Assembly: GCF_002156875.1 (NCBI RefSeq)
Contig: NZ_NCSY01000003.1
Coordinates: 62,001-126,000, forward strand
Source of the DNA: Bacillus sp. EAC
GTDB lineage: Bacteria; Bacillota; Bacilli; Bacillales; Bacillaceae_G
Length of the DNA stretch: 64,000 nt
Direction of reading: 5' to 3'
Shown: positions 49,078 through 52,138 of the stretch, piece after piece
How positions within the stretch are numbered: position 1 is the first letter of the stretch
How the letters are laid out: every line of letters begins with the position of its first letter
Notes under the pieces: generated by a model
Seen by the model: only the letters and a program-made list of their open reading frames with translations
The model's database searches: none
Told to the model about the DNA's origin: nothing
Made by a program: the position numbers and the translations under genes

Positions 49078-49331
49078 ACTTTTCTTATTGTCTGGTGCCA
49101 AAAGCTAGCTCTTCGGTATTATTCCATAGACCATTGAAGTGGAAAGTTCGACACTTCTTCTGGTCCATGGAGATAATCCCTTCAGAGCTGAACAAGCTTT
49201 TTCTACTTTTCTTATTGTCCAGTTTCAAAAGCTAGCTCTTCGGTATTATTCCATAGACCATTGAAGTGCAAAGTTCGACACTTCTTCTGGTCCATGGAGA
49301 TAATCCCTTCAGAGCTGAACAAGCTTTTTCT
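49078..49331 (-). repeat. Tandem pair of a 127-bp structured repeat after pyrG
   Basis: Two units, 49078-49204 and 49205-49331, differ at 5 of 127 positions. The 11-12 bases AATAAGAAAAGT (minus strand) occur at the start, the junction and the pyrG stop, so the unit is bounded by a short direct repeat. Read on the minus strand each unit folds into an outer AGCTCT/AGAGCT stem, a long interrupted stem and an apical GAAGTG/CACTTC hairpin. A third, diverged copy lies at about 52029-52138. Confidence 0.9.
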
Positions 49332-49338
49332 ACTTTTC

Positions 49339-50937
49339 TTATTTATTAGCTAAAGATGCGCCAATGAAGTCTCTGAATAGTGGTTGTGGTCTATTCGGAC
49401 GAGAAATGAATTCTGGGTGGAATTGTGATGCTACAAACCATGGGTGGTTAGGAAGCTCAATAATCTCCACTAAACGACCGTCAGGACTTGTTCCCGAGAA
49501 AATAAAGCCTGCTTGTTCCATTTGTTGACGGTACTCATTATTGAACTCATAACGGTGACGGTGACGCTCATAAACAACCTCTTCCCCGTATGCTTCAAAT
49601 GCCTTAGAACCTTCAACCAGTTTACAAGGATATAGACCAAGACGTAATGTCCCACCTAAATCTTCAACATCTTTTTGTTCAGGTAATAGGTCAATAATTG
49701 GATAGTTTGTTGTTGGATCGATTTCCGCTGAATGAGCTCCATTCATGCTTAAAACATTTCTAGCAAATTCAATCGAAGCAATTTGCATACCTAAACAAAT
49801 TCCTAAGAAAGGAACATTGTTTTCACGAGCAAATTGAGCTGTTAAAATCTTACCTTCAACACCACGATCTCCAAACCCACCTGGCACTAAGATTCCATCA
49901 ACATCACTTAATAATTCAGTAACATTGTTCGTAGTTACTTCCTCTGCATTAATCCATTTAATTTCGATTTCGCTATCGAATGCATATCCTGCATGTTTTA
50001 AAGCTTCTGCAACAGAAATATATGCATCTTGTAATTCAACATATTTACCCACAAGAGCAATTTTAGTTGTATTAGAAAGGTTTTTAACTTTATCAACAAG
50101 TGCAATCCATTCTGTCATATCTGCTTTATTTGTTTTTAATTTTAAATGCTCACAAACAATATCGTCTAATCCTTGTGCTTGTAAAGCCAATGGGATTTCG
50201 TAAAGTGTTTCAGCATCCACACATTCAATAACATCTTTTGCATCTACATCACAGAATTGAGCGATTTTATCTTTCATTTCTTGTGGTACAGATGTTTCTG
50301 AACGTAATACGATCACATTTGGTTGAATTCCAATGCTACGAAGTTCTTTTACACTATGTTGAGTTGGTTTTGTTTTTAACTCACCTGCTGCTTTAATATA
50401 AGGAAGTAGAGTACAGTGAACATACATTACGTTATCACGGCCAACATCACCTTTAATTTGACGAATTGCTTCGATGAATGGTAATGATTCGATATCTCCA
50501 ACTGTTCCACCAATTTCAGTAATTACTACATCCGCATTCGTTTCACGACCTGCACGGAATACTTTATCTTTAATTTCATTTGTAATATGAGGAATTACTT
50601 GTACTGTTCCACCTAGATAGTCTCCACGACGTTCTTTTTGTAAAACTGTTGAATATACTTTACCGCAAGTTACATTACTAAATTTATTAACATTAATATC
50701 AACAAATCTTTCATAATGACCTAAATCTAAATCTGTTTCCGCTCCATCATCTGTTACAAAAACTTCACCGTGTTGATAAGGACTCATTGTTCCTGGATCT
50801 AAGTTGATATACGGATCAAACTTTTGAATTGTTACATTTAAACCTCTGCTTTTTAATAGTCTTCCTAGTGATGCTGCAACAATTCCTTTACCTAAAGAAG
50901 AAACTACGCCACCTGTTACGAAAATATACTTTGTCAT
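49339..50937 (-). CDS. pyrG: CTP synthase
   Basis: This 532-residue enzyme converts UTP to CTP with glutamine. The N-terminal synthase domain starts [17 protein letters not shown]; the class I amidotransferase domain begins near 290 and has GICLGMQ (catalytic Cys near 378) and the final HPEF triad part ([11 protein letters not shown]). The ribosome binding site is GAAAGGGG. Expression is probably set by the GGGCUC attenuator described upstream. Confidence 0.97.
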
Positions 50938-51164
50938 ATTGAGCCCCTTTCATTTTTTAGCATTCGTATTTTATTTTTTCTTTACTAGAAATTACAAAGC
51001 TAAACTTTAATAAAAAATTAATTAACAACTTAATTTTACGTATGCTTTATTGTCGTCCAAAATAGGTTTGTTTCATGCAAGTACTTCTGATATATCATTT
51101 CGGATCGACTAAATAAAAACATTCATAATACTTTATATTCCAAGCTTTCCGTAAAAAAAATAAA

Positions 51165-51193
51165 GACGCCCCCTATATAAAATAGGGAGCGTC
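51165..51193 (-). promoter_or_regulatory. pyrG leader attenuator (CTP-sensing terminator)
   Basis: GACGCTCCCTAT pairs with ATAGGGGGCGTC, followed by a long U-run. It lies in the pyrG leader 30 bases after a GGGCUC start. In B. subtilis, CTP shortage causes extra G residues at the 5' end that pair with the CUCCCU tract and block this terminator. The CUCCCU tract is present here. Confidence 0.8.
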
Positions 51194-51222
51194 AAATATG
51201 TTTCGTTCTTTTTTAAAGAGCC

Positions 51223-51259
51223 CAATAAGAATTCTACTCATTCACCATAAAAAAGTCAA
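51223..51259 (-). promoter_or_regulatory. pyrG promoter with GGGCTC start
   Basis: TTGACT (51254-51259), exactly 17 bases, TAGAAT (51231-51236), then 7 bases to GGGCTC at 51218-51223. The initial GGG run is required for reiterative G addition. The promoter begins just 5 bases after the rpoE stop codon. Confidence 0.85.
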
Positions 51260-51263
51260 GAAC

Positions 51264-51821
51264 TTATAGTTCTTCTTCCTCATCAATTTCCTCTAATTCT
51301 TCGTCTTCGTCATCTTCAAGTTCTAAATCTTCGTCGACTAAGTCTAAATCTTCGTCTTCATCTTCATCGATATCATCGTCTTCGAATACATCAACTACTT
51401 CATCCGCAAGATCTTCATCAAGTTCATCTAACTCAACTAAATCTTCATCTTCTTCAAACTCATCTTCTTCTGAAGCATCGTATTCAGCAAATTCATCATC
51501 GTCTTCGAATTTTTTAGCACGTTTCTTCTTAGGTTTCGCAACTGGCAATACTTCTTCTTCTGCTTGATCATATGGATACCAAGCACGTAGACCCCAGCGA
51601 GTTTCTCCTAAACATACAAAACGACCATCAATATTTAATTCAGTATAAAATTGAGGAAGCTTTTCTAAAAGTTCATCTCTAGTTACTCCTAATTCAGTTG
51701 CCATACGGTCAACTAAGTCATAAAAAGAAAATGGCTCTTTTGTTTCAGAAAAAAGTTCATATGATAATTCAATTAGTGATAATTCTTTTAATTGCTCTTC
51801 CGAGTATTGCTTTAAACTCAA
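51264..51821 (-). CDS. rpoE: RNA polymerase delta subunit
   Basis: This 185-residue protein has an N-terminal winged-helix HARE-type domain (SLKQYSEEQLKELSLIELSYELF to about 90) and a long tail made almost only of Asp, Glu and Val/Leu. The delta tail displaces RNA and speeds enzyme recycling in Gram-positives. The start is a TTG at 51821, 6 bases after GGAGTG; an upstream ATG at 51869 has no such site. The tail is a little longer than in B. subtilis. Confidence 0.95.
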   Translation of the reverse strand: MSLKQYSEEQLKELSLIELSYELFSETKEPFSFYDLVDRMATELGVTRDELLEKLPQFYTELNIDGRFVCLGETRWGLRAWYPYDQAEEEVLPVAKPKKKRAKKFEDDDEFAEYDASEEDEFEEDEDLVELDELDEDLADEVVDVFEDDDIDEDEDEDLDLVDEDLELEDDEDEELEEIDEEEEL

Positions 51822-51994
51822 GGTAAGCACTCCTTTAAACATATTATTTTCAACGTAAATCCAATACATTATGTATAAATTTTACTTGTTAGTTATAAAA
51901 TACATATCTTTCATTATAAACAAAAGTATGTTAAATATGCTAGCACCTAGACTATATTTTTCAATATTACAGCAATTTTTCATGAAAATGATAA

Positions 51995-52021
51995 AAATGA
52001 GCGTCATAACGACGCTCATTT
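51995..52021 (-). terminator. icmF terminator
   Basis: AAATGAGCGTC / GACGCTCATTT, 11-bp stem with 5-nt loop and T-run, past the third repeat copy. Confidence 0.85.
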
Positions 52022-52028
52022 GAAATGT

Positions 52029-52138
52029 GGAGCAAGCTCGCCCAGCTCTGAAGGAAATATCTCCATTTATCTGAAGAAGTGGCGTACGTTCCACTTCGAA
52101 GATTAATAGAATATTACCGATGAGCTTGCGGAACTAGA
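52029..52138 (+). repeat. Diverged inverted copy of the structured repeat
   Basis: The plus strand here resembles the minus strand of the units at 49078-49331: shared blocks are CAGCTCTGAAGG, ATATCTCCAT, GAAGAAGTG, CCACTTC and ATTACCGA. Outer stem GCAAGCTC/GAGCTTGC and apical GAAGTGG/CCACTTC are perfect, and helix pairs are kept by compensating changes. It lies in the icmF 3' region before the terminator. Confidence 0.8.

Follow-up and report, generated by a model that had tools for sequence, protein, structure and literature searches.

Folded, probably mobile and non-autonomous repeats are widespread between the genes of Bacillales

What are the repeated, foldable sequences that lie behind pyrG and icmF in Bacillus sp. 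EAC? They occur in a 64,000-nucleotide (nt) stretch of that genome (assembly GCF_002156875.1, contig NZ_NCSY01000003.1, positions 62,001 to 126,000), which we call the window. An original prediction, made from the letters alone, described two tandem 127-bp units after pyrG and a diverged, inverted copy downstream of icmF, and proposed that a structure was being selected. We find that the window copies belong to a real and widespread family of folded interspersed repeats that is most likely mobile and non-autonomous. The family is apparently undescribed so far.

The arrangement in the window is as first reported. The direct repeat consists of two copies of 127 nt that are 95% identical, and the inverted matches reach 76-77% identity over 108 nt. 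In the frames set by our covariance model R1, which was built from the copies of alignment A1 (see below), each copy is 119-123 nt long, and the tandem period is made up of a 123-nt unit and a 4-nt spacer. Two full elements of family A stand head to tail on the minus strand, unit 1 at 49216..49338 (R1 score 95.0 bits) and unit 2 at 49089..49211 (92.4 bits). The spacer between them, ATAA at 49212..49215 (minus strand), was placed from the sequence and the 4-nt spacer rule. The third copy, at 52022..52140 on the plus strand and antisense to icmF, is full-length (69.9 bits). Compensating base changes had been claimed between the units now framed at 49216 and 52022 (given as 49205 and 52029), and they are present: 25 pairs are the same and seven are changed on both sides yet still paired, while four are broken and four gapped. 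The gapped pairs were removed by a 4-nt deletion in the 6-bp stem (stem 2) of the third copy. This copy is partly decayed, a point missing from the original prediction. All three window copies fold beyond chance as RNA of either strand. Relative to shuffled sequences, RNA of the strand that reads GAAAAG gives z scores of −4.95 and −6.64 for the tandem units and −2.47 for the third copy; the opposite strand gives −3.54, −5.03 and −4.27, respectively.

The copies share a common frame. Their ends read GAAA[A/T]G[T/C]GGA ... GGA[A/G]CTAGACA and enclose a 7-bp stem, a 5-nt bulge and a 6-bp stem, above which the upper hairpins differ. A second family (B), found in the flanks of the copies, has the same ends as family A and different stems. 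We examined 109 candidates, a few of which are false. Full pairing was seen for the 7-bp stem in 89 of them and for the 6-bp stem in 91, and the sequences of these stems are diverse. Of the candidates, 103 were kept; five were left out because they start with CAAATGTAGC and one because of its odd length. Alignment A1 holds 51 copies, 50 chosen as less than 90% alike and one added. Both partners vary at 31 of the 39 pairs of this alignment, which scores 0.471 for covariation, compared with 0.159 after shuffling and 0.058-0.152 for slid structures. As many as 90.0% of cells are paired, although this measure is tilted towards the structure scored, because that structure came from folding the alignment's first sequence. 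These data support a selected fold in which pairing is maintained while sequence varies, as had been predicted.

Two further forms of the frame were seen. A third family (C), a hairpin with GACATTGGAGC, forms a tandem array in genome G004 (locus L033, 1260-1505, minus strand) and has the ends of families A and B. A form of 69-70 nt retains the foot stems without an upper hairpin, and occurs at one site in four related species (G009:C45:191009-191077, G012:C35:88029-88097, G011:C1:4523707-4523775 and G003:C795:7113-7182). As four species share this form there, persistence does not depend on the upper hairpin.

A covariance-model search for more copies had been suggested, and it uncovered a family far larger than supposed. 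The Bacillus sp. EAC genome (G000) has 83 R1 matches at E ≤ 0.01, or about 81 copies, since two of the matches share sequence with others: one with a match on the opposite strand and one, over 26 nt, with its neighbour. Six of its contigs (C1, C2, C11, C24, C27 and C28) end in or near arrays, so the true count may exceed 83; arrays seem to break the assembly. Four congeners carry 19, 20, 18 and 12 copies, in contrast to the 83 matches here. A BLAST query with a single unit hit this genome at 24 places (E ≤ 1), several of them tandem. It also matched 10 of 12 congeners but gave no hit at E ≤ 0.001 in the 27 genomes taken from beyond the genus. R1 reached much further: with at most nine candidates scored per genome, it matched 272 of 397 genomes across the order, in 88 of 135 genera (E ≤ 1e-5). 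At this prevalence, the family would count as one of the more frequent interspersed repeats in a large order of bacteria. Sixteen named genomes, chosen for holding a pattern match and with 150 candidates scored in each, had 13-141 R1 matches apiece (E ≤ 0.001).

A pattern scan of genome records gave at least 120 stretches. The matches listed include Mesobacillus, Metabacillus, Neobacillus, Litchfieldia, Sporosarcina, Peribacillus, Aquibacillus, Anoxybacillus and relatives, as well as one record labelled Chryseobacterium, which was taken for a mislabelled Bacillales genome. Note that the carrier Sutcliffiella rhizosphaerae is placed in the order Caryophanales at NCBI, which we took as the same order as Bacillales. 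One family-B query had no match in 72,556 plasmid records or in 50,697 phage records (the window's own or near records may be excluded from both), and one viral contig stretch in IMG/VR was matched by pattern; carriage on plasmids or phages was rejected on these grounds. The earlier idea of a dispersed, probably mobile element thus agrees with the number of matches in this genome, with the breadth of the family and with differences between congeners at the same sites.

Which strand folds can be read from wobble pairs, since G.T is better tolerated than A.C in folded RNA or in a single DNA strand. We counted both at 13 basal pairs in unique elements (the three window rows, which duplicate L011, were left out): 274 model matches gave 214 elements with recognisable ends, of which 16 failed a threshold of at least 9 of 13 Watson-Crick pairs, leaving 198. 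Read on the GAAAAG strand, these contained 51 G.T and 13 A.C pairs (two-sided binomial P = 2e-6), a count that could be favoured by the use of a model of that strand to find the elements. The excess was present both in elements antisense to nearby genes (33:10, P = 6e-4) and in sense elements (18:3, P = 1.5e-3). It is therefore the GAAAAG...CTAGACA strand that appears to be under selection, and read-through from neighbouring genes is an unlikely cause. The data suggest that this strand folds irrespective of the direction of nearby genes. This weakens, and does no more than weaken, the proposal of an mRNA processing signal, as the same strand is favoured for either gene direction.

Elements are arranged in head-to-tail arrays. 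Of 57 pairs of neighbouring elements, 56 lie on the same strand and one on opposite strands, and the spacer is exactly 4 nt in 44 of the 56 same-strand pairs. The 4-nt spacer was also present in nine of ten neighbour pairs that are less than 60% identical, several of which do not represent other families but copies that have been shortened or extended. Full-length neighbours from families A and B within the genus had a 4-nt joint in all 12 unique pairs, three of them in the Bacillus sp. EAC genome; some of the 12 may be orthologous. Unlike members standing in phase go beyond what tandem duplication alone would give, and therefore precise joining, or the exchange of units within a phased array, is needed. 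The joints between unlike hairpin units point to a novel process that joins with 4-base precision.

The repeats occupy the spaces between genes. In other genera, 5 of 178 arrays overlap an open reading frame (ORF) of at least 150 amino acids by more than 40 nt. Orientation and tails were counted in the 151 unique arrays among these, with genes called by a simple ORF rule, so that distances are approximate. Both neighbouring genes are antisense to the array in 75 cases and sense in 35, with 41 otherwise. Where the upstream gene is co-oriented (61 arrays), 36 arrays start 0-7 nt past its stop codon; in the Bacillus sp. EAC genome, 12 of 17 elements start 0-4 nt past a stop codon. A logo of the 40 nt preceding the element in other genera was empty except for TAA. 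Beyond the arrays, an AT-rich tail (near AAATTTTATACTTTCTTATCT) follows 46 of 151, compared with 4 of 151 in shuffled flanks. By eye, this tail is often continued by an A-run and a hairpin, the mirror image of an intrinsic terminator, and tailed copies have possible terminal inverted repeats (TAAGAAAAG / CTTTCTTA). Neither feature was seen in the Bacillus sp. EAC genome, where nine array ends were listed for the tail.

We interpret the repeats as copies of a non-autonomous mobile element, present across many Bacillales genera and recognised in trans as a folded strand; on balance this is the explanation we favour. An enzyme supplied in trans would recognise the frame as a folded single strand, and new copies would be inserted between genes or at the edge of a copy already present. 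Arrays could then be reshaped by tandem gain and loss and by internal deletion. The window's own sites fit differences in occupancy within the genus. None of 12 congeners had an R1 match at the pyrG site at E ≤ 1; they have the stop codon and the hairpin without the element, apart from other extra sequence at this site in G002 and G004. At the icmF site, the family-A copy is found in the Bacillus sp. EAC genome only. Congener G008 has a short family-B copy there in reverse orientation relative to it, and weak matches occur in G002, G009 and G012 (E = 0.003, 0.12 and 0.35). By eye, the interval is plain in G001 and other congeners have similar remnants.

Several observations weigh against this interpretation, the weak point of which is that a candidate moving enzyme was not found. 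The Bacillus sp. EAC genome has no match to Y1_Tnp (PF01797) at E ≤ 0.001. Among 51 proteins encoded beside its elements, no transposase or recombinase was named among 25 of 80 Pfam families; one family, a 5'-3' exonuclease, has 'resolvase-like' in its description. Among 300 neighbour proteins from other genera, no cluster lies beside more than four loci. The neighbouring genes, where named, are ordinary core genes, and PADLOC reported 14 families, each in one member. A linked mobile gene was rejected on these cluster, Pfam and PADLOC results. The choice of strand has its own exceptions: the basal pairs of the 51 copies in A1 hold 7 G.T and 11 A.C, the opposite of the 198-element count (all pairs of A1 hold 71 and 53), and for the third window copy the opposite strand gives the stronger fold. 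Most copies also sit at shared sites. Five related congeners were compared, three of them 92-93% identical over about 0.35 Mb, and for 56 of the 60 copies tested an orthologous site exists in another of the five (one listed place was left out, its flank being too short). Aligned congener sites show copy-number change and deletion with no clean insertion. Target duplications are not clear. Identical 4-nt flanks surround 5 of 122 single copies where 2.0 are expected, and flank matches of at least 5 nt occur in 9 of 52 tailed copies (4.4 expected, P = 0.019) and 8 of 113 untailed copies (4.0 expected, P = 0.039). These flanks do not demonstrate simple target duplication. Finally, old copies change more slowly than their flanks. 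At eight orthologous loci, with one pair of sequences each, 15 differences fall in 610 paired positions, 16 in 365 unpaired positions and 56 in 480 flank positions (paired versus flank, P = 8e-10). Leaving out the site G009:C45:411072, whose flanks appear to be misaligned in part, brings the flank count to 36 of 420. Four of 35 comparisons were dropped because one lineage had family B and the other family A.

This slow change suggests host use or homogenisation, and host use is the most substantial of the rival explanations. According to it, a structured element that is useful to the host, either as RNA (protecting 3' ends, insulating genes after the stop codon or binding a protein) or as DNA, spread at an earlier time and is now selected in place. 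We consider this rather unlikely, even though it would account for elements placed directly behind stop codons in this and other genera, for the sharing of sites among congeners, for the AT-rich tails and for the finding of Bacillaceae-1, a candidate RNA already known, within the frame or next to it. Arrays antisense to both neighbours outnumber sense arrays by 75 to 35 of 151, yet wobble pairs favour one strand throughout, and the upstream logo of other genera is bare beyond TAA. Copy number also varies widely within the genus, from 12-20 in four congeners to 83 here. Upkeep of individual copies is not strict either: paired positions are not significantly slower than unpaired ones (P = 0.13), and of 13 changed pairs at the orthologous loci, 8 are broken, 3 were kept by one change and 2 by two. 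The broken pairs therefore count against strong upkeep of each fixed copy.

Two more specific alternatives were weighed and set aside. Repetitive extragenic palindromic (REP) sequences are palindromes of 20-40 bp with a GTAG or CGTC tag, according to PMC3733652. A REP or bacterial interspersed mosaic element (BIME), moved by a REP-associated tyrosine transposase (RAYT; Y1, HUH), would be intergenic, palindromic and present in many copies, as the element is. The GTGG-like foot beside the stem resembles the REP tag, and a search of 21 genomes gave some Y1_Tnp match in 15. However, units of about 122 nt (119-123 nt in the window) stand head to tail, whereas the alternating orientation of BIMEs was not found among 57 neighbour pairs (56 same-strand, 1 opposite), and no Y1_Tnp match was found in congeners G001, G002, G006 and G007 or in the Bacillus sp. 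EAC genome itself. We regard this origin as highly unlikely; REP/RAYT membership was rejected on the absent Y1 match and the same-strand neighbours, and the label 'REP-like' is not supported. PMC4333381 proposes that the reverse complement of Bacillaceae-1 acts as an RNA decoy for CsrA; for the element, such a role is the least probable of all. GGA does flank the internal loop of the foot on both sides. CsrA (PF02599) is present in 374 of 397 genomes, but among the 11 congeners examined it was not found in nine (G002 and G005-G012), each of them a carrier of the element. Bacillaceae-1 is also matched on the strand of the element, whereas it is the complementary strand that has the CsrA motif. 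The decoy was thus rejected for the genus of the window. The presence of csrA in G000, G001 and G004, and not in those nine congeners, suggests its loss inside the genus.

If the repeats are indeed non-autonomous mobile elements, integrons offer a parallel for how they might move. Integron attC sites have conserved ends, a bulged stem and a variable top, fold as one strand and form one-direction arrays. The element is like them in these features, although it is too short for a cassette gene and the likeness is by description only. We tentatively suggest that the conserved ends and foot stems could form a single-strand recombination site, attC-like in its working and unrelated to attC. It would be moved by a novel Bacillales recombinase, would carry interchangeable modules (the A, B and C hairpins and Bacillaceae-1 RNA) and would build phased, one-directional arrays of different modules with 4-nt joints.

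Bacillaceae-1 RNA (RF01690) is the known RNA closest in position to the frame. Eight matches were found in 7 of 33 loci from other genera, all eight on the element's strand; five overlap an R1 match and three lie within 50 nt of one. These loci were picked for holding the element, so the frequency of lone Bacillaceae-1 cannot be read from them. At L197 and L212, Bacillaceae-1 is enclosed by the element's own ends, and at L211 it follows a fresh 5' end without a matching 3' end. It differs from the window copies in being a 67-nt, two-hairpin module whose model lacks the frame, and the window copies are not matched by it. Bacillaceae-1 was reported in PMC2864571, and its strand was uncertain to earlier authors, as stated in PMC4333381. 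The element frame supplies a setting and a strand for this RNA.

The window as a whole has no Rfam match at the gathering score, RF01690 included, so that, with regard to Rfam, the window copies fit no named family, as had been expected. Together with the further copies in this genome and the pairing retained across A1, this means that, within the comparisons made, no outcome named beforehand as refuting the prediction occurred. In the 3.2-kb stretch that holds them, a PyrG_leader match is the only one that stands out below the gathering scores. Other repeats of the family Bacillaceae were compared by description. The bcr elements of the B. cereus group are dispersed structured repeats with mobile traits. 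They are named in PMC2267715 and PMC3733652, and a reference title in the former terms bcr1 specific to that group; the present family is found in 88 of 135 genera. Bhal-1 of B. halodurans is, in a table of PMC2267715, a stem-loop family (type I) of 74 bp in 36 copies; it resembles the element as a stem-loop repeat of a Bacillaceae genome and differs from it in length (74 bp versus about 122 nt). Literature listings gave no description of the element frame, and queries with sequence strings returned unrelated papers only.

Within the window, the elements sit tightly between genes and hairpins. The pyrG ORF occupies 49339-50937 with its stop codon at 49339-49341, which the first base of unit 1 directly abuts. 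A second ATAA spacer (49085..49088, minus strand) lies behind unit 2 and is followed by an apparent remnant of a third element, 24 nt at 49061..49084 (minus strand). The remnant, recognised by eye (GAAAAGTGGAAGGCG..TGCCTG) and with no R1 match, looks like the 5' end of a family-B unit plus part of stem 1, with the interior deleted. Next comes a bidirectional terminator-like hairpin (49020..49060) between pyrG and a convergent DUF2529 gene. The insertion on the pyrG side therefore sits after the stop codon and before this hairpin, and a comparable hairpin follows the pyrG stop codon in element-free congeners (by eye). Likewise, the copy at 52022..52140 is placed between the icmF stop codon and a terminator-like hairpin (51997..52019) that ends 2 nt from the 5' end of the element. 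Upstream of pyrG, a PyrG_leader-like hairpin (51157-51223, minus strand; 47 bits, Rfam gathering score 65) is probably the usual pyrG attenuator.

Two minor observations concern other genomes. Contig C1 of G153 (4.3 Mb, in one contig) has 59 matches, many of a longer form of about 150 nt. Their strands are biased, with minus to plus 25:5 in the first half and plus to minus 18:11 in the second, by a hand count that takes base 1 as the origin, and no such bias was seen by eye in G265. Replication-strand bias was rejected, as it appeared in one of two genomes only, with an assumed origin, and is confounded with gene direction. In G004, a GC-rich sequence resembling CTCCTGTG...GGCTC...CCCACGGAAAG occurs downstream of both pyrG and icmF (L401 and L414; by eye), and may perhaps be a different dispersed repeat.

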